Shown piece after piece: positions 41,759 to 50,815 of a stretch of DNA of 64,000 nt. This stretch comes from Bacteroidota bacterium (GTDB lineage Bacteria; Bacteroidota; Bacteroidia; B-17B0; Aurantibacillaceae): NCBI GenBank assembly GCA_030684395.1, contig JAUXTT010000008.1, positions 186,001 through 250,000 of the forward strand, read 5' to 3'. The position numbers and the translations under genes were made by a program. The notes under the pieces were generated by a model that ran no database searches, was not told the DNA's origin, and was given only the letters and a program-made list of their open reading frames with translations. Every line of letters starts with the position of its first letter. The first letter of the stretch is position 1.

Positions 41759-41808
41759 TTATTATCAGCGGAATCTATGTATATTTGTATAGATTCCGCT
41801 AGTAATAA
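41759..41808. repeat. 50-bp imperfect palindrome, left boundary of the ATPase unit
   Basis: Arms AGCGGAATCTAT (41767-41778) and ATAGATTCCGCT (41789-41800) are perfect; outer TTATTA/TAATAA ends extend the palindrome to 50 bp. It is 40/50 identical, in the same orientation and of the same length, to 43247-43296. Its 10-nt loop holds TATATTTG (41780-41787), a -7 box. Confidence 0.9.
41780..41787 (+). promoter_or_regulatory. -7 box inside the left palindrome loop
   Basis: TATATTTG matches TANNTTTG and lies 30 bases before the ATG at 41818, so the gene's promoter appears to be carried in its own palindrome. The -33 region is not clear. Confidence 0.5.
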
Positions 41809-41817
41809 ATATCCATT

Positions 41818-43245
41818 ATGAAATCAAACTTGGTAGGAAGGCTTAGAGAGAAAGCCGTTTTAAAAGAAATATCAGATTCTGATAGTAGTCAATTTTTAGC
41901 AATTACAGGAAGGCGACGTGTAGGCAAAACCTATTTAATTAAATCTTATTTTAATACGAAAATTGATTTTGATTTTAGCGGTATATTAAACGCCAACCAA
42001 CATGATCAGCTTCAAAATTTTCAGTTTTCACTTACCCGTCACTTTAAACAATATAAAAAATCTAATGTAGTTTTAAACTGGCTAAGCGCATTCAAACATT
42101 TGAGTTTATTATTACAAAAGACAAAAAAGAAAAAGAAACAAATAGTATTTATAGATGAATTACCCTGGCTGGATACACACAAATCGAATTTTTTAGCTGC
42201 TTTGGATTGGTTTTGGAATAGTTGGGCTGTAGATCAAAATATTGTTTTAATTGTTTGTGGATCTTCTACATCGTGGATTATAAATAAATTGATCAACAAT
42301 AAAGGAGGACTTCATAATCGTATAACAAAAAGAATTCATCTGGAACCTTTTACCCTTGGTGAAACTGAAAGTTTTTTAAATCAAAGAGGCATCACACTGT
42401 CGCGCTACCAGTTATTACAAACCTACATGGCCTTTGGCGGCATACCACATTATCTGAAAGAAATACACAAAGGAGAAAGCGCTATGCAAGCTATCGACCG
42501 GATTTGCTTTAAGAAAAGTGGCTTATTGGTGAATGAGTTTGATAATCTTTACAAAGCTTTATTTAATAACTATCAAACACACGTAAAGATAATTTTTGCA
42601 CTTTCATCCAAACTAAAAGGACTTACACGAAACGAGATCCTTGCTATAACAAAACTAAGCGATGGGGGCACTTTTACCTCCATTTTAGAAGAACTGGAAT
42701 GGTGTAGTTTCATAAAATCGCAACCTTCTTTTGGTAAAGTGAAAAAAGAAATTCTCTACAGGCTTACTGATGAATACAGTTTGTTTTACATCAAATTTAT
42801 GTACAGAAAGAAAAACGTGAACTGGCAGCAACTTTCTTCAGGAAACACATGGAAAAGCTGGAGTGGTTACGCGTTTGAGAATATTTGTATAAAACACATT
42901 TCCCAATTAAAAAGTGCGATGGGTATTAGCGGGGTTTATACCGAAGAAAGTGGTTTTATATACAAAGGAACTAAAACACAAAAAGGCACACAAATAGATC
43001 TGGTAATAGACCGCAATGATGGGATCATTAATTTATGTGAGGCAAAATTTTATAATAAAGAAGTTAGCATTTCTAAAGGTTATGCTTCCGAACTGAAAGA
43101 GAAAAAAGATATATTTGAGCGAATTAGTGCTACCAATAAAACCGTTTTTATGAGTATGATAACAACACATGGATTAAGCTCAAACATCCATAAAAATGAA
43201 CTCATTCAGCAAGAAATGGACATGAATGATTTGTTTACGGATTAA
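41818..43245 (+). CDS. ATPase with PD-(D/E)XK nuclease-like C-terminus, palindrome-flanked
   Basis: 475 residues. N-terminal ATPase_2-type P-loop domain: Walker A 'GRRRVGKT' (31-38), Walker B 'IVFIDELPWLD' (Asp113/Glu114), 'LIVCGSSTSWI' (sensor 1). A winged-helix region follows (about 255-335, 'LSKLKGLTRNEIL'), then a DUF234-like C-terminal domain with restriction-nuclease residues Asp394 ('TQIDLVID'), Glu408 and Lys410 ('INLCEAKFY'). The family (COG1672-like) is patchy and of unknown function. The gene begins 9 bases after one 50-bp palindrome and ends 1 base before a second, 80% identical one. This suggests a one-gene mobile unit in which the protein may act on the palindromes; that role is inference. 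Confidence 0.85.
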   Translation: MKSNLVGRLREKAVLKEISDSDSSQFLAITGRRRVGKTYLIKSYFNTKIDFDFSGILNANQHDQLQNFQFSLTRHFKQYKKSNVVLNWLSAFKHLSLLLQKTKKKKKQIVFIDELPWLDTHKSNFLAALDWFWNSWAVDQNIVLIVCGSSTSWIINKLINNKGGLHNRITKRIHLEPFTLGETESFLNQRGITLSRYQLLQTYMAFGGIPHYLKEIHKGESAMQAIDRICFKKSGLLVNEFDNLYKALFNNYQTHVKIIFALSSKLKGLTRNEILAITKLSDGGTFTSILEELEWCSFIKSQPSFGKVKKEILYRLTDEYSLFYIKFMYRKKNVNWQQLSSGNTWKSWSGYAFENICIKHISQLKSAMGISGVYTEESGFIYKGTKTQKGTQIDLVIDRNDGIINLCEAKFYNKEVSISKGYASELKEKKDIFERISATNKTVFMSMITTHGLSSNIHKNELIQQEMDMNDLFTD

Positions 43246-43246
43246 T

Positions 43247-43296
43247 TTATTGCCAGCGGAATGTGGTAAAATTTATATAGATTCCGCTGGTAATAA
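43247..43296. repeat. 50-bp imperfect palindrome, right boundary of the ATPase unit
   Basis: Arms TTATTGCCAGCGGAAT (43247-43262) and ATTCCGCTGGTAATAA (43281-43296) pair with one mismatch around an 18-nt loop. It starts 1 base after the stop codon. 40 of 50 positions equal the left copy, with the differences mostly in the centre. Confidence 0.9.
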
Positions 43297-43353: not shown

Positions 43354-43383
43354 TTGGTTTTAAGGTAAAATTTCCTATTTTTG
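43354..43383 (+). promoter_or_regulatory. Promoter of the 43402 T9SS cargo gene
   Basis: TTG (43354-43356), 19-base spacer, TATTTTTG (43376-43383). The -7 box overlaps a TTG that would otherwise look like a start, supporting the ATG at 43402. Confidence 0.7.
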
Positions 43384-43401
43384 CTATCCAAACTACAACC
43401 T

Positions 43402-44943
43402 ATGAAAAATATTTTCAAAAACCTCTTACTTTTTATTTCATTAATTGCTTCTAACAATTTAATTCAGGCGCAAATTTCCGGAAACTCTTATATCTGCGAA
43501 GGAACTTCTAATTCTTATAACTGCGATCAAACTTCTTCTACTTATCTATGGAACGTATCCCCATCAAGTGGTGTAGGTATTTCAGACGCAACTATTCAAA
43601 CTCCAGATATCTCCTTTCCTACAGCCGGTACCTATACTGTATCAGTAAGCACAACAGGTCCAGTGAGTACTTTTACTCTTGGTGTAACTGTAAACCAAAC
43701 ACCAATAATATCATTTATTACTTCTCAAACTGTTTGTCCAAACATAAGTACCTCCGCAATTAATTTTTCAAGTACACCTGTAGGTGCAACTGTAAGCTGG
43801 ACCAATAGTGATCCTGGCATTGGCATCGCCAATTCAGGAACAGGAAATATCCCATCTTTTACTACTATTAATTGGGGTCTTACACCTCTGACCGGATATT
43901 TCACAGCTATACCCGGTTTAAATGGGTGTCTTGGCGTACCGCAAACATTTACTATTACAGTAAACCCTTCAACAAACATATCAGGTACCATTACTTCAAA
44001 TGCAACCACGATCACAGACGGACAAGTATATTTATTTGCTCCTTCCCAAACACTTTATATGTATGATACAATTGCAATTACGAGTTTAAATGCAAGCGGC
44101 CAATATTTATTTTCTTCTGTTACAAGTGGTAATTATTTAGTAAAGTGTATTCCTGATAATTCTGTATATCCAAATCCTATCGGCACCTATTACGGGAACG
44201 CTTCACAATGGGATTCTGCTATGGTAATTAACCACGATTGTGCAAATGATTTTGTTGCTGATATTGAACTGGTAATAGCTTCTTTACTAACAGGACCGGG
44301 AATAATTTCAGGGCATTTAATAGAAGGTGTAGGATATGGAACTAACAGAATGATAAATTCCACAAATGAAATCATGGCTCCCGGTGGACCAATAAAAGGA
44401 ATTCCAATTAATCTTCTAACAACACCTTCAGGGCAATTTCAAGGGCAAAGCATTTCAGACAGCACCGGATATTTTGAATTTACAAATGTTCCGGTTGGAG
44501 ATTACACTTTGTTGGCTGATATTCCGGGACTGACAATGGATTCATCTTATTTCATTCAGATCACACCAAACGCTTTTGTTAGTGGAATGAATAGTGTATC
44601 AAGTGCCATTTATACTGATTTGGATTTCATGGTAGATAGCAATTCTATTTCTCCGATCAATCCTTTTGTTGGAATACCTGAACTAAAAAACAAAGCGCAG
44701 GAGATCTCAGTTTATCCTAATCCTGCAAAAAACAGTGTGACTTTCAAAGCAAATGGATTTGAATCTAAAACTTATAGAATCGAATTAATAAACTCTCAGG
44801 GGCAATCTGTTTTCATAGACAAACAAAGCGCGGCTTCTGATTACATCCTTGACCTAAAAAAACTGAATATTACTTCCGGACTTTATGTAGTGAAATTAAG
44901 TTCTGGGAATGTAATCAAAACCACGAAGCTGATCATTGAATAA
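43402..44943 (+). CDS. PKD-like T9SS type-A cargo protein
   Basis: 513 residues from the ATG at 43402; a TTG 21 bases upstream lies inside the promoter. Signal peptide (1-24), two PKD/Ig-like domains in the first 190 residues ('TYLWNVSPSSGVGIS', 'VSWTNSDPGIGI'), then carboxypeptidase-regulatory-like or SdrD B-like units (about 190-400; 'GQYLFSSVTSGNYLVKCIPD', 'GYFEFTNVPVGDYTLLADIPG'), and a type-A sorting domain ('SVYPNPAKNSVTFKANG', 'ITSGLYVVKLSSG'). Probable surface protein. Its gene begins shortly after the palindrome-flanked unit. Confidence 0.85.
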   Translation: MKNIFKNLLLFISLIASNNLIQAQISGNSYICEGTSNSYNCDQTSSTYLWNVSPSSGVGISDATIQTPDISFPTAGTYTVSVSTTGPVSTFTLGVTVNQTPIISFITSQTVCPNISTSAINFSSTPVGATVSWTNSDPGIGIANSGTGNIPSFTTINWGLTPLTGYFTAIPGLNGCLGVPQTFTITVNPSTNISGTITSNATTITDGQVYLFAPSQTLYMYDTIAITSLNASGQYLFSSVTSGNYLVKCIPDNSVYPNPIGTYYGNASQWDSAMVINHDCANDFVADIELVIASLLTGPGIISGHLIEGVGYGTNRMINSTNEIMAPGGPIKGIPINLLTTPSGQFQGQSISDSTGYFEFTNVPVGDYTLLADIPGLTMDSSYFIQITPNAFVSGMNSVSSAIYTDLDFMVDSNSISPINPFVGIPELKNKAQEISVYPNPAKNSVTFKANGFESKTYRIELINSQGQSVFIDKQSAASDYILDLKKLNITSGLYVVKLSSGNVIKTTKLIIE

Positions 44944-44979: not shown

Positions 44980-45822
44980 ATGAAAAGATTAATAGGTATA
45001 TTTTTAATTACACTTCTGTTCTGCACTTGTAAAAAAGATGCGTCGGTTTGGGATATAAAAAACCTGAATAATAATTCTATATCTTGTTTCGGACATAGCG
45101 GAATGGGGATATTTTACAGGTATCCTATCAATTCAGAAAAATCCTTTGAGCGCTGTTTTGAGATGGGTGCAGATGGCACCGACTTTGATGTTCAGTTGAG
45201 TAAGGATAATAAACTTGTTTTGTTTCACGACAGAAAAATGGAGGACGGTTCTGATTGCGATGGTTACGTGTATGATAAAAATTGGGACGAGATAAAAAAC
45301 TGTTTGCATAAAACTCCACTTTCAGGGAAACAAAAAATAATTCCCGCCAACTCAATACTTGATGTTTACGGTAAGAAAAAATTAATATTCACCTTCGATT
45401 GCAAGTTATACAGAGATCATCAAACAGATTATTACACTTATATTCAAACCTATGCAGATGTATTGCTTGAGTTTACGGATAAATACGAAATAACAAACAC
45501 TTCATTCTTTGAAACCATTGACACCAATTTTATCAGGATCTTATTAAATAAAAAACCAGACCTCAATATTTTCTTCTACTCACATCGTTTTGAAGATGCA
45601 CTCGCCATTGCAAATAACATGAACCTCAAAGGTATTACTATGGAAATCGATCAGATATCTGCTGAACAGGTTGATTTGGCACATGCTAACAACAGACAAG
45701 TTACCTTATGGAACGTCCATACAGAAAACCAAAACATTGAAGCAATCGAAAAAAATCCCGATCATATTCAAAGTGATAAACTAAAACACCTGCTTAAGAT
45801 TTTTGATAAATATAAAAAGTAA
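44980..45822 (+). CDS. Glycerophosphodiester phosphodiesterase-like lipoprotein
   Basis: 280 residues. Lipoprotein signal with lipobox 'LLFCTC' and then a GDPD TIM-barrel pattern: 'ISCFGHSGMG', 'ERCFEMGADGTDFDVQLSKDNKLVLFHDRKM' in parts, and 'VTLWNVHTENQ' near the end. Normal enzymes hydrolyse glycerophosphodiesters to glycerol 3-phosphate. Two family-typical positions differ: the HRG motif is HSG, and the Glu of the E-x-D pair is Asp. Activity may therefore be changed or lost, or the branch may use another substrate. It would face the periplasm or be lipid-anchored. Confidence 0.75.
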   Translation: MKRLIGIFLITLLFCTCKKDASVWDIKNLNNNSISCFGHSGMGIFYRYPINSEKSFERCFEMGADGTDFDVQLSKDNKLVLFHDRKMEDGSDCDGYVYDKNWDEIKNCLHKTPLSGKQKIIPANSILDVYGKKKLIFTFDCKLYRDHQTDYYTYIQTYADVLLEFTDKYEITNTSFFETIDTNFIRILLNKKPDLNIFFYSHRFEDALAIANNMNLKGITMEIDQISAEQVDLAHANNRQVTLWNVHTENQNIEAIEKNPDHIQSDKLKHLLKIFDKYKK

Positions 45823-45931: not shown

Positions 45932-48900
45932 TTACTTAGTATATTTCTTTATCAGTTCCAACATCTCTTTATTATTATAATACTTTGCATAATCCTCAAA
46001 AGTGGCACCGTTTATATCCTTTAATGTGAGATCAGCACCATTGGCAAGTAAAATATTTATTCCCTCTATATTCTTCTCAATGGCCGCCAGTAACAAAGGA
46101 CTTAAGCCCTGGTTTTCCCGGATATTGATCGCATCCGGATAAACAGCAAGTGCTTCTTTCAACATCTCAGAAGAGTTGGAACGGCTTGCCATGTGCACGA
46201 TTGTTTGTCCGCTCTTTGTTCTCACTTTTGTGTTTGAACCAGCCTTAACCAGAATCTTAAAATTTTCCACTCTTCCATAAAAGGAAGCATTCATAATGGG
46301 AAATAAACTATCCGTAGTTGGGAAGTTAATTACACCTTTATTTAATTTGAGTGCAAGTTTAAGTACTTCCGGGTTAGCTGAGGCAGCTGCTTTCGTTACA
46401 ATAGAATTCCCTCCTGTTTCAATCCGTTTATAATTCAAACCTTTTGTAATAAGCCGTTCACAAATTTCCTTATCCCCTTTAAAAAAGGCCAACTGCTCGA
46501 GTCCATAATTGGTTTGTGCTTCCAACAGTAAATTTACATCTGCTCCTTTTGAAAGAAGGTAATTCATCATTTCCATGTTCCCCACTGAAACAGCGTAAGC
46601 AATTGCCGGCCATCCATCCGGTTTTTTGGTTACAGGATTGTACTCACAATCGTTTACGCTTACTTTTTTCTCTTCGATCAGGTATTTGAGAATATCCATC
46701 TTTTTATTTGCAACTGCAATCCCTGTGAGGTTACCATAATAAGATCCCCTGTTTGTAGGGTCGGTATAAATCACACCTCTTGCATTAATATCAGCTTTTG
46801 CTGCAACCAGTTTTTTTACCATTGCAAGGTCACTATACAATACTGCCCACATAAGGGTTGTGGCGCCACCTGTGTCCACAGCGGTTACATCAGCTCCATC
46901 TTTTATCAATTTATCTACCAGCTCTTTATCATCCGCTTTTATGGCACTCGCCAGCTCCTCATTAAAATCGTTCTTCCATATTAACACATCGTTCGATATA
47001 TTCTCACTTCTCGAAGTAGGTTGTTGCTTGCCCTGAGTTATTGCGGGAACATCCACTTCAATATATTTTTGAAGCTCCGACAAATAAACTTTACCATCAT
47101 TGTTCCCGTCTGCCTTATGTTTCCTGAGTGCATTAATGAGTGAATAGGAAAACACACCATTGTTCCACTCCTCGCCTTCCATTGCATATTCAGTTCCACC
47201 GGCCGAAGAAATAACTGTTGCTCCCGAAGTTTTGCGCAGATCAATAAACATTTCTTTCATTAGGTTCATAGAATTTTTGAGTAAACCTTCCGACGAACTT
47301 ATTTTGTTAGAGGAAGTGGAACGAAAGGCAACAGCACCATTTTCTGCTATAGGTTCACTTTTTGTAACCACTATCTCGTCTTTGTCAATCTCTCCGGAGT
47401 GGCACGCGTCAATAAGAACAACCTTGTTGCGTGGAGAAATGTGATCCAGCAGGTTTTCTATTTCTGAATAAAGCAAGCCTTTTTCGGATGGGTTCTCAAA
47501 ATTTACATCATACGTTGCCAGATAGTAATCGAGGTTTTTATCGAGCATACCATGAGTAGCGGCAAATATCATTACCTTATCGTTAACGCCAACGGAATCA
47601 TCCTTATGATCTCTTTTGATTTTCTCTTTCAGTTTTAAAATATTTTCGAGCGTTGCACTGTCATTTAATAAAGTATCAACAATGATAGAACTGTACTGAT
47701 TTTTTTGATTCTGAAATAATTTTATGACGTCTCTTATATCCTTTGCCGGATATTTTAAATTGTATTTGGAGTCTTTAAATTTTGAGACACCAATGCCGAT
47801 AATATGCAATTTGGGTTTGGCATCGTTTTCGGGGTTCGAATACCAGGTAGAAAACGTATAAGGATACGATTCCACATTATCTTCATTGGTAATCTTAACA
47901 GAAACCTTATTCCATCCTTTGTTCAGGAATATCGTAAATGCTATGGGAATTGAACTGGTTGAAGCAAGGTCATAGCCATCTATAATACTTGTTCCTTCAA
48001 CACCGTGCACAGGAACATCATTGATCGTTATTTTTATATTCTTCAGCTTTTTGTAATCGTCGTGAAGCACAAAAAATAGTTTCAGGGCACTTTTATGAAC
48101 TTCGGGAGGGTAAGTGTAAGCCGAACGCAATATAGGCCTGTTATTATTGATCAATCCTTTAGCGTTAGCAATATGCAATCGTTTCATGCGTTTTTCATGG
48201 AGCTTTTTATAGGCCGCCACTATTTCCTCTGATTCGTATCCTAAAGCCCCGGAAATAATATCGGGTCGGTTATACTCGATGTCAAGATCTGCCAGGTCAA
48301 ACACCGTATTACCATAAGAATAGTATGCCATATTCACATTAGCTTCTTTAGTAAAGGAGGCAGATGCAACATAATAATTTTCGGGAGTCAGGGTAATGTA
48401 GCTCCCGTAACTTGCCGAGTATGTTGAAGTAACATTAGAATAATTCTTCGATTCCCATACTTTTACAAAAGCATCCGTGCCAGCCGTTACTATAAAACGA
48501 CCGTCATTTGTGTAGATAACCTTCCATAGGTACCCTACATGAGGCCTCCATTTTTTTATCAACTGTTTTGTTTCCAGGTTCACCACTTTCAGTTCATAAT
48601 TATTACATACTATTGCCATCTCATTTTTTACCGGGTTCAACGTATAAAACAGAACATCATTTATAAACTTCTTATCCCTGAACTCATTTACTTTTTTAAA
48701 TGTCCACTTATCAAAAATATAGATGGCTGTATCTTTTGTACGGATTGAAAAAAGATTAGCATTTTCGCCCGACAAGTCGAGCCACGTATATAAATTGTAT
48801 TCTCCTAACACAATTATTTTATCTGTATAAACATTTTTAAGGCAGGCGCTTCCCTTGTCCTGATATAATAAAAAAGTATCTCTTACTAAATTGAGTTCTT

Positions 48901-50815
48901 TAAGTGCATATGACTTAACAATACTCTTGTCCTTCCGGTTAGTATGAAGCATTACTTCTTTTTCTTTGGTAAGGTATATAAAAGTAGAATCGTTGACTAA
49001 AGGTTGAAAGTATATTGGAAATGAAACAGGCTTAAACCCGTAAGTCAATTTATTCTTTTGATAATCATAGGAACACAAAAGACTATCGGGTGAGATAAAG
49101 GCGAGGTTGCTATTGAATTTATTTACTTTACCCAAACCTATAGGAGAAACTTTAGCCGTACTGGAATTCCAGATGATCCTTCCGCTCCGGAGTGAAAACA
49201 AACTGATGATATTTTTGTAATTTATAGCAACAATTTCGTTTTGCCCGTCGGGCTCGATGCTATGAGGTATGATCCCCGTTCCCTGAATAAAATTGAACTC
49301 ATCGGTGTCTAAATCGTATGTTGTGCAAAAAGTAACCCCTCCGTAAATAGCCATATTATATTTATAGTTAAATCCAAGGCTATAATATTTTTGCGTATTA
49401 AAATTCTCATAATGAATGGTTTTTTTGAAGGCGTGCTCGTTATAATCATATAATTTTCCGTAACCATTATCCGTCAATAACAAAAGACGGGTGTTATTGG
49501 TGGTGTCGTTTACATCTATAGACACCATACGGCTGTATGCTGAATCTTCTTCTGTTGAAATGATCCGTTCCACCTTTGAATCGGTATAAATAAATTTTAC
49601 CGCTTTGCCATTTGAAACTGCAATGGCGTTTGAATACGGCATGGCAAAATCAGTGATTCTTTCGAAACCTGATTTGAGCACAGTATCAGTAAAAGTTTCC
49701 AGGTTCAACAACATGATATTACCTTTCAGTAAATTAATTATAGCGCGTTTTCCTGAAGTACTGAGCTCGATCTGGGCGGTTTTATTCTTAAATCCGTTCA
49801 TGGTTTTAAAACATTTTTTCTCCACAATGTTCCAAAACTTTAATGTGCTATCGCTTGAAGAACTCATGAGTTTTCTGTCGCGGTCAAAAAAAACAATATC
49901 GTTCACCCGGTTTTTGTGCCCTATTAATTCAGCAACTAACTTACCTGTTTCCACTTCCCAGATCTTAATGGTTGAATCTTCCGAACAACTGACTACCAAA
50001 CGTTCATTCATGGAAAATTCAAGATTAACTATTTGTTTGTTGTGTGCTTTTATAGTTCTTAATTCCTTGCTTCCATCGCCCAAAGCAATTTTAATATGTC
50101 CTTGCAATCCGCCATATGCAAGCAACTTACCCGATTTACTAACGGCAATGGCATCAATCTCATCATTTGATCCGGATTGTATAACCAATTCAGGTTCAAG
50201 GTTGGAAGAAGGCGGGTGTGGTGTGAAAGAAAACTCCATCAAAGTTTTTAAAAACTCAGAGAACCTGTTATTAATATCACCTTCGAAATTTGCGACAACA
50301 TAAATCTTCCCTTTGGTAAGGTGATTATAATAGCATATGATGCTGGTATAATTATACTCTACAAATGATCCCGGGATACTATTATGACCTACAACACCGG
50401 TCATCATCACTTCGTCGGCATTCAACATAACGCTCCATAAATCCTGGCTTTCGATACTGGATTTTTTTTTATCGTTTATTCCGAATAAAACAGGGAGATC
50501 ATTTCGTACTTCCTCTTCCAGGTTATAATGATTGAAGCAGGTATCGATGTAATAGGCCACATTCATTTTTGTTGAAGGGTTTTTATACATAACAAAACCC
50601 GGATCCAGCCCGCTTTTTTTTGACTGAAACAGACTAAAGCCCAACAGTAAAGTATCTGTTTTTTCGGAAAATATACTATGTTCGAATCGAACCTTGTATT
50701 TTCTCATTCGTTCCCTAAAATCAGCCGGGAACTTTTCCTGGGCAAGTCCTGAAAAGAAATGGAGTGAGAAAGTCAGGAGAAGTAAAATCCGGGTATGGAA
50801 GAATAATTTAATCAC
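45932..50815 (-). CDS. WD40 - caspase-like peptidase - ankyrin repeat protein
   Basis: 1627 residues. Signal peptide (1-25, ending 'GLAQ'). WD40 blades at about 210-330 ('LVVSCSEDSTIKIWEVETGK', 'LMSSSSDSTLKFWNI') with propeller-like sequence continuing to a further clear blade near 755-790 ('FIVTAGTDAFVKVWE'). A peptidase C14 (caspase/metacaspase-like) domain at about 1000-1270 has the dyad His1088 ('AATHGM') and Cys1138 ('LIDACHSG') and an EF-hand-like loop near 1240 ('DGNNDGKVYLSEL'). Ankyrin repeats fill about 1285-1627. The fold predicts an Arg/Lys- or Asp-specific cysteine protease regulated by Ca2+ and by protein-protein contacts. Secretion together with ankyrin repeats is unusual. Single gene; a -7 box ends 4 bases before the start. 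Confidence 0.88.
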   Translation of the reverse strand: MIKLFFHTRILLLLTFSLHFFSGLAQEKFPADFRERMRKYKVRFEHSIFSEKTDTLLLGFSLFQSKKSGLDPGFVMYKNPSTKMNVAYYIDTCFNHYNLEEEVRNDLPVLFGINDKKKSSIESQDLWSVMLNADEVMMTGVVGHNSIPGSFVEYNYTSIICYYNHLTKGKIYVVANFEGDINNRFSEFLKTLMEFSFTPHPPSSNLEPELVIQSGSNDEIDAIAVSKSGKLLAYGGLQGHIKIALGDGSKELRTIKAHNKQIVNLEFSMNERLVVSCSEDSTIKIWEVETGKLVAELIGHKNRVNDIVFFDRDRKLMSSSSDSTLKFWNIVEKKCFKTMNGFKNKTAQIELSTSGKRAIINLLKGNIMLLNLETFTDTVLKSGFERITDFAMPYSNAIAVSNGKAVKFIYTDSKVERIISTEEDSAYSRMVSIDVNDTTNNTRLLLLTDNGYGKLYDYNEHAFKKTIHYENFNTQKYYSLGFNYKYNMAIYGGVTFCTTYDLDTDEFNFIQGTGIIPHSIEPDGQNEIVAINYKNIISLFSLRSGRIIWNSSTAKVSPIGLGKVNKFNSNLAFISPDSLLCSYDYQKNKLTYGFKPVSFPIYFQPLVNDSTFIYLTKEKEVMLHTNRKDKSIVKSYALKELNLVRDTFLLYQDKGSACLKNVYTDKIIVLGEYNLYTWLDLSGENANLFSIRTKDTAIYIFDKWTFKKVNEFRDKKFINDVLFYTLNPVKNEMAIVCNNYELKVVNLETKQLIKKWRPHVGYLWKVIYTNDGRFIVTAGTDAFVKVWESKNYSNVTSTYSASYGSYITLTPENYYVASASFTKEANVNMAYYSYGNTVFDLADLDIEYNRPDIISGALGYESEEIVAAYKKLHEKRMKRLHIANAKGLINNNRPILRSAYTYPPEVHKSALKLFFVLHDDYKKLKNIKITINDVPVHGVEGTSIIDGYDLASTSSIPIAFTIFLNKGWNKVSVKITNEDNVESYPYTFSTWYSNPENDAKPKLHIIGIGVSKFKDSKYNLKYPAKDIRDVIKLFQNQKNQYSSIIVDTLLNDSATLENILKLKEKIKRDHKDDSVGVNDKVMIFAATHGMLDKNLDYYLATYDVNFENPSEKGLLYSEIENLLDHISPRNKVVLIDACHSGEIDKDEIVVTKSEPIAENGAVAFRSTSSNKISSSEGLLKNSMNLMKEMFIDLRKTSGATVISSAGGTEYAMEGEEWNNGVFSYSLINALRKHKADGNNDGKVYLSELQKYIEVDVPAITQGKQQPTSRSENISNDVLIWKNDFNEELASAIKADDKELVDKLIKDGADVTAVDTGGATTLMWAVLYSDLAMVKKLVAAKADINARGVIYTDPTNRGSYYGNLTGIAVANKKMDILKYLIEEKKVSVNDCEYNPVTKKPDGWPAIAYAVSVGNMEMMNYLLSKGADVNLLLEAQTNYGLEQLAFFKGDKEICERLITKGLNYKRIETGGNSIVTKAAASANPEVLKLALKLNKGVINFPTTDSLFPIMNASFYGRVENFKILVKAGSNTKVRTKSGQTIVHMASRSNSSEMLKEALAVYPDAINIRENQGLSPLLLAAIEKNIEGINILLANGADLTLKDINGATFEDYAKYYNNKEMLELIKKYTK

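Follow-up and report, generated by a model that had tools for sequence, protein, structure and literature searches.

The window analysed here, a 64,000-nt stretch of a Bacteroidota genome, contains a gene bracketed by two matching 50-bp palindromes, which raises the question of whether the unit is a minimal mobile element bounded by its palindromes or a defence gene with a palindromic control site, as the first-pass annotation had alternatively proposed. The bracketing itself is exactly as described there: the palindromes lie in identical orientation and share 40 of 50 positions, the gene starting 9 bases past the upstream one and stopping 1 base ahead of the other (Table 1). Six of the ten differing positions fall within the 14-bp centre, and pairing of the arms is kept at 16 of 18 positions in each palindrome, so that the differences do lie mostly in the loop.

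Table 1. Features of the palindrome-flanked gene (positions in the window).
Feature	Position	Strand	Details and basis
Upstream (promoter-proximal) palindrome	41759..41808	+	Half-sites 41759-41776 and 41791-41808; 14-bp centre; CM R1 54.5 bits
TATATTTG in upstream palindrome centre	41780..41787	+	Promoter-box match from sequence; box enriched in proximal palindromes
Downstream palindrome	43247..43296	+	Half-sites 43247-43264 and 43279-43296; CM R1 54.1 bits
475-aa ATPase / winged-helix / PD-(D/E)XK protein	41818..43245	+	PDC-S27 family, Pfam ATPase_2
P-loop ATPase domain, residues 1-235	41818..42522	+	Pfam PF01637, E 1.7e-19; invariant residues; fold matches
Winged helix-turn-helix (wHTH), about residues 252-316	42571..42765	+	Predicted secondary structure
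Recognition helix with putative specificity residues D282, T285, S288	42661..42702	+	Covariation with half-site bases -14/-13 and -17/-18
Wing with putative specificity residue K310	42730..42750	+	Covariation with half-site base -12
Predicted PD-(D/E)XK nuclease domain, residues 331-475	42808..43242	+	D394, E408, K410; model pLDDT 94; fold matches

The description of the product as a P-loop ATPase joined to a PD-(D/E)XK-like domain (Asp394, Glu408, Lys410) agrees with Pfam, with fold matches and with residue conservation. The protein scores 71 bits against Pfam ATPase_2, well above the gathering cut-off of 33.2, and carries Walker A (GRRRVGKT, residues 31-38) and Walker B (FIDE, 111-114) motifs. 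Its full-length predicted model (mean pLDDT 91.5) is nearest, among solved folds, to the archaeal Walker ATPases 2qen and 2fna, followed by ORC/Cdc6 proteins. The C-terminal domain was modelled separately, and its fold matches AF1548 (E 1.9e-4) as well as MspJI, NucS/EndoMS, LmuA of Lamassu, SduA and McrC, all with E values above 0.001; despite these weak matches, its predicted membership of the PD-(D/E)XK superfamily is clear, because D394, E408 and K410 are invariant across 28 homologs.

The PADLOC profile PDLC04984 (PDC-S27) matches the protein over its full length (E 1.4e-189, positions 1-473 of 474), and the fusion of an ATPase to a PD-(D/E)XK domain is the architecture of that family. 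In the parts of PMC12988326 that deal with it, PDC-S27 is a phage-defence candidate put forward through 'guilt by embedding', with validation pending for most PDCs, and is among the commonest defence candidates, with thousands of copies in bacteria and archaea. The gene, a member of this candidate family, probably serves in defence; this copy differs in that it adjoins nth, with no defence island visible around it and no visible embedding in a defence system. Two paralogs are encoded in its genome, with identities of 49% and 47%. Three homologs (L030, L180 and L321) are interrupted by a TGA or TAA stop codon in frame, and the closest relative found (57% identity, G283) is among them. Our literature searches returned no described mechanism for PDC-S27 and no paper on PF01637 with inverted repeats or palindromes, and the passages of PMC12988326 that discuss S27 mention no cognate palindromes.

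The palindromes are a property of the gene family, beyond the window locus alone. We collected 195 distinct proteins from the same genome, the same family and class, GTDB contigs, plasmids, phages and viral contigs, and used a half-site matrix trained on these homologs as palindrome detector. Rather than being absent around all homologs, an outcome that would have spoken against the first-pass annotation, the consensus palindrome was detected upstream of 156 of the 186 homologs with enough flank, and was not found by the matrix in the upstream flanks of the other 30; downstream, it accompanies 39 of 191. The detector background amounts to 6 palindromes per 815 kb of neighbouring DNA of the same loci. 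At a given locus, upstream and downstream palindromes share 90% of a 10-nt core, as compared to 63% between loci. Cognate palindromes are thus a widespread and apparently undescribed feature of the known PDC-S27 family.

A covariance model built from 47 palindromes was used to scan eight genomes. It identified exactly seven palindromes in the 4.9-Mb genome of origin, every one of them at the gene itself or at one of the two paralogs. The genomes G047, G048 (66% complete) and G033, which lack the gene, gave no hit; the association between palindrome and gene is therefore far above chance. The only other strong imperfect palindromes on the 40-bp scale in the window, centred at 793 and 21635, are excluded by the model from the gene-linked family.

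The geometry is rigid: 280 of the 282 palindromes have a centre of 13 or 14 bp between their 18-bp half-sites (12 to 20 bp being allowed), and tandem upstream copies usually follow each other every 52-54 bp. This would place half-site centres at a distance of about 31.5 bp, or three turns of B-DNA, and successive repeats at about 53 bp, or five turns. Such phasing fits a protein bound on one face of the duplex rather than RNA hairpins.

Evidence for that protein came from covariation between the half-sites and the gene product itself. For 155 homologs (effective number 115), with the arms in register, the bases of the half-sites were compared with the residues of the protein by mutual information after correction for column background. 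The top pair was D282 with base -14 (z = 22.7), followed by T285 with -17 (z = 16.0), D282 with -13 (z = 12.1), K310 with -12 (z = 12.0) and S288 with -17 (z = 11.6). In the predicted structure, residue 282 sits just ahead of the recognition helix (284-295), residues 285 and 288 are on the helix, and the wing that connects strands 299-304 and 312-316 contains residue 310. L57, which lies in the ATPase domain and outside the winged helix, also covaries with -14 (z = 8.3). In order to control for kinship, we formed pairs of closest relatives, as judged outside the winged helix, and compared the changes within each pair; 282/-14 (p = 2.9e-9), 285/-17 (p = 1.4e-8) and 310/-12 (p = 2.2e-6) were the top three of 8550 tests.

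These pairs can be read as a code. At -14, S or T at position 282 goes with C, N with T, and D or E with G, which is correct in 140 of 148 cases; at -17, R288 goes with G in 40 of 44, and at -12, R310 goes with T and K310 with A. Viewed on the opposite strand, N is paired with A, and D or E with C, which are textbook contacts. All three genes of the source genome obey the 282/-14 rule. Among held-out loci, which come mostly from the single genus g220, the T/S-C and E-G rules hold at -14; within g220, G stands at -17 where residue 288 is R (A in one of the two half-sites of L321), and C where it is Q, K or D (G in one L323 half-site). L337, a repeat of a locus already in the set from which the code was built, is an exception to the N rule.

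The earlier proposal that the product recognizes its own palindromes is thus strongly supported by covariation with both the recognition helix and the wing of the wHTH. The protein very probably binds these palindromes as duplex DNA through its winged helix, with a specificity that, as shown by sequence statistics, would be set by residues 282, 285 and 288 together with wing residue 310. The wHTH appears to be a built-in, rapidly diversifying DNA-reading head with its targets at its own gene. Since the code predicts the base from the amino acid in approximately 95% of cases, it provides a defined ligand as well as point mutants with predicted switched specificity.

What this binding could serve is suggested by the centre of the upstream palindrome, where TATATTTG matches TAnnTTTG, which we take to be the -7 promoter box of Bacteroidota. 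Of 116 proximal palindromes, 99 have the shorter form, TAnnTTT, in the right-hand part of their centre, versus 74 of 166 distal or downstream ones (p = 1e-12). On the opposite strand this box is rare, and its longer form, TAnnTTTG, does not occur. Because the box is concentrated in its centre, the proximal palindrome is best seen as a putative operator over the gene's own promoter, and the box inside this palindrome, taken together with the wHTH covariation, points to a cognate operator that overlaps it. Since the wHTH appears to read palindromes at its own gene, the gene is most likely self-controlling; autoregulation is the best reading, and binding would lower transcription.

We thus favour, with a probability of roughly 0.68, a horizontally spread unit of one gene, which encodes an ATPase-nuclease, is equipped with DNA operators of its own and is self-regulated. 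A dimer or higher oligomer on the promoter-containing palindrome would keep transcription low, while cooperative binding or looping could come from neighbouring and downstream palindromes. The oligomer might then be altered by ATP binding or by an infection signal, which would lift repression and unleash the PD-(D/E)XK nuclease. Of the two earlier suggestions, that of a defence gene controlled at a palindromic site fits better, in view of the proximal promoter box, the mostly upstream-only sites and the PDC-S27 match. Promoter repression alone leaves the 39 palindromes that follow a stop codon unexplained. The apparent reading of DNA at its own gene also gives a way into the question of how a nuclease that would bind the host chromosome stays safe.

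Parts of this arrangement are familiar. Archaeal ATPase_2 or STAND-like ATPases (PF01637; 2qen PABY2304 and 2fna SSO1545) also place a winged helix after the ATPase fold, but their chains of about 350 residues align over 364-367 columns of the 475-residue model, leaving the C-terminal nuclease uncovered. Archaeal Orc1/Cdc6 initiators, which the protein resembles in its AAA ATPase and winged helix by fold match, have inverted-repeat binding sites near their own gene; compared to these, the window protein has an additional nuclease domain, is encoded by a patchily distributed chromosomal gene and displays no link to replication origins. Phage repressors and autoregulated toxin-antitoxin systems also have tandem palindromic operators over their own promoter and a specificity that changes with the protein, whereas the window protein combines its DNA-reading module with an ATPase and a nuclease in one polypeptide.

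The same binding could mainly serve to tether the nuclease close to the gene that encodes it, the arrays being an anchor or self-marker (a sensor or a self/non-self device), with regulation being secondary. Distal and downstream palindromes without promoter boxes retain the same core, and co-resident paralogs share the 10-nt core in none of 90 pairs, which is suggestive only, and a mere hint of orthogonality, as 1.4 shared pairs were expected. For most genes, however, all sites lie upstream, and it is the start-proximal one that holds the promoter box; we thus consider tethering unlikely as the main role. It is quite unlikely that the arrays are working sites where the nuclease is parked, to be released or fired on infection, with diversification of the wHTH code preventing cross-talk between paralogs as in phage immunity groups; if true, such direct involvement of the arrays in how the system acts would be more striking than self-regulation.

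Mobility is also quite improbable in the form of a cassette in which the ATPase-nuclease moves the palindrome-gene(-palindrome) unit by cutting at the palindromes, in the manner of a transposase or homing nuclease. The gene itself is likely to spread by horizontal transfer, since it occurs patchily, and also on plasmids, in phages and in a Butyrivibrio. Both the presence of the gene in 18 of 87 genomes of the family and the existence of homologs up to 83% identical across genera, in apparently different surroundings, would suit a mobile cassette. The minimal palindrome-bounded element proposed by the first-pass annotation nevertheless fares poorly: 152 of 191 homologs lack the downstream palindrome and hence do not have ends on both sides, and protein identity within a genome reaches at most 81% over 90 pairs, so that near-identical copies are missing.

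The annotation had also suggested looking for solo palindromes and gene-less loci. No solo palindrome was found by the covariance model in the source genome. In the same-genus genome G048, which lacks the unit and could in this respect represent an empty site, nth is directly followed by a homolog of the lipoprotein gene at 44980-45822 of the window (homology by reading translations), and no unit, no gene corresponding to 43381-44943 and no palindrome lie between the two. The loci thus differ by about 3.3 kb, which includes a neighbouring type IX secretion (T9SS) gene in addition to the unit, and the flanks are too diverged to define exact ends of the missing unit. The neighbouring gene (43381-44943, + strand) encodes a secreted protein with a C-terminal sorting-type domain, assigned to type IX secretion by eye. 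Where clean empty sites were sought at dapD (28 further genomes) and at the exonuclease locus of the sister genus, the neighbouring genes proved to be rearranged.

Gene-less palindromes do occur in G087/G338, one of them beside a gene remnant, which would suit a moving unit. In genomes with 9-11 gene copies, gene-less consensus palindromes were located at L285:2855-2904, L286:2785-2834, L289:2954-3003, L290:2949-2998 and L287:2990-3145 (apparently two in tandem), and represent remnants or else sites that control other genes. At L288:3040-3210, a palindrome is followed by a truncated gene start (MQGKFIGREAEKEVLEKALQ...), indicating a decayed copy. Such palindromes in multi-copy genomes, one of them by a truncated gene, are as expected from gene decay. 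A dispersed-repeat (REP-like) reading was rejected, as there are no solo palindromes in the source genome (G000), G047, G048 and G033 and few in G087/G338. REP-RAYT and IS200/IS605-type transposons are similar in having a gene beside cognate palindromes, but the window unit has no HUH/Y1 transposase and its palindromes are not dispersed.

In Wolbachia phage WO (MN180249), a PDC-S27 homolog in the head-gene module (L154:3800-5560) is preceded by a pair of short palindromes that are nearly identical to each other and carry TATAAT in their loops. In L162, L163 and L167, which are WO phages without the gene, the corresponding spacer contains at least one diverged palindrome. The step from one diverged palindrome to two palindromes plus the gene could be read as insertion; it is weak evidence for insertion at palindromes, because these repeats are shorter, of a different sequence type, and recur in neighbouring WO spacers.

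It is very unlikely that the palindromes work at the RNA level, folding in the transcript into hairpins that serve as terminator, attenuator or small RNA, since the well-paired arms, T-rich centres and position of the downstream palindrome at the stop codon, which such a role would explain, are outweighed by the centre fixed at 13/14 bp, the five-turn tandem phasing, the covariation of the bases with a DNA-reading helix, the promoter box that would prevent the proximal palindrome from being fully transcribed, and the lack in the window of a T-run after the stems, unlike intrinsic terminators.

Further downstream in the window (45932-50815, - strand), a gene encodes a 1627-residue protein that by eye combines WD40-like repeats, a caspase-like domain and ankyrin repeats, which is an unusual combination.
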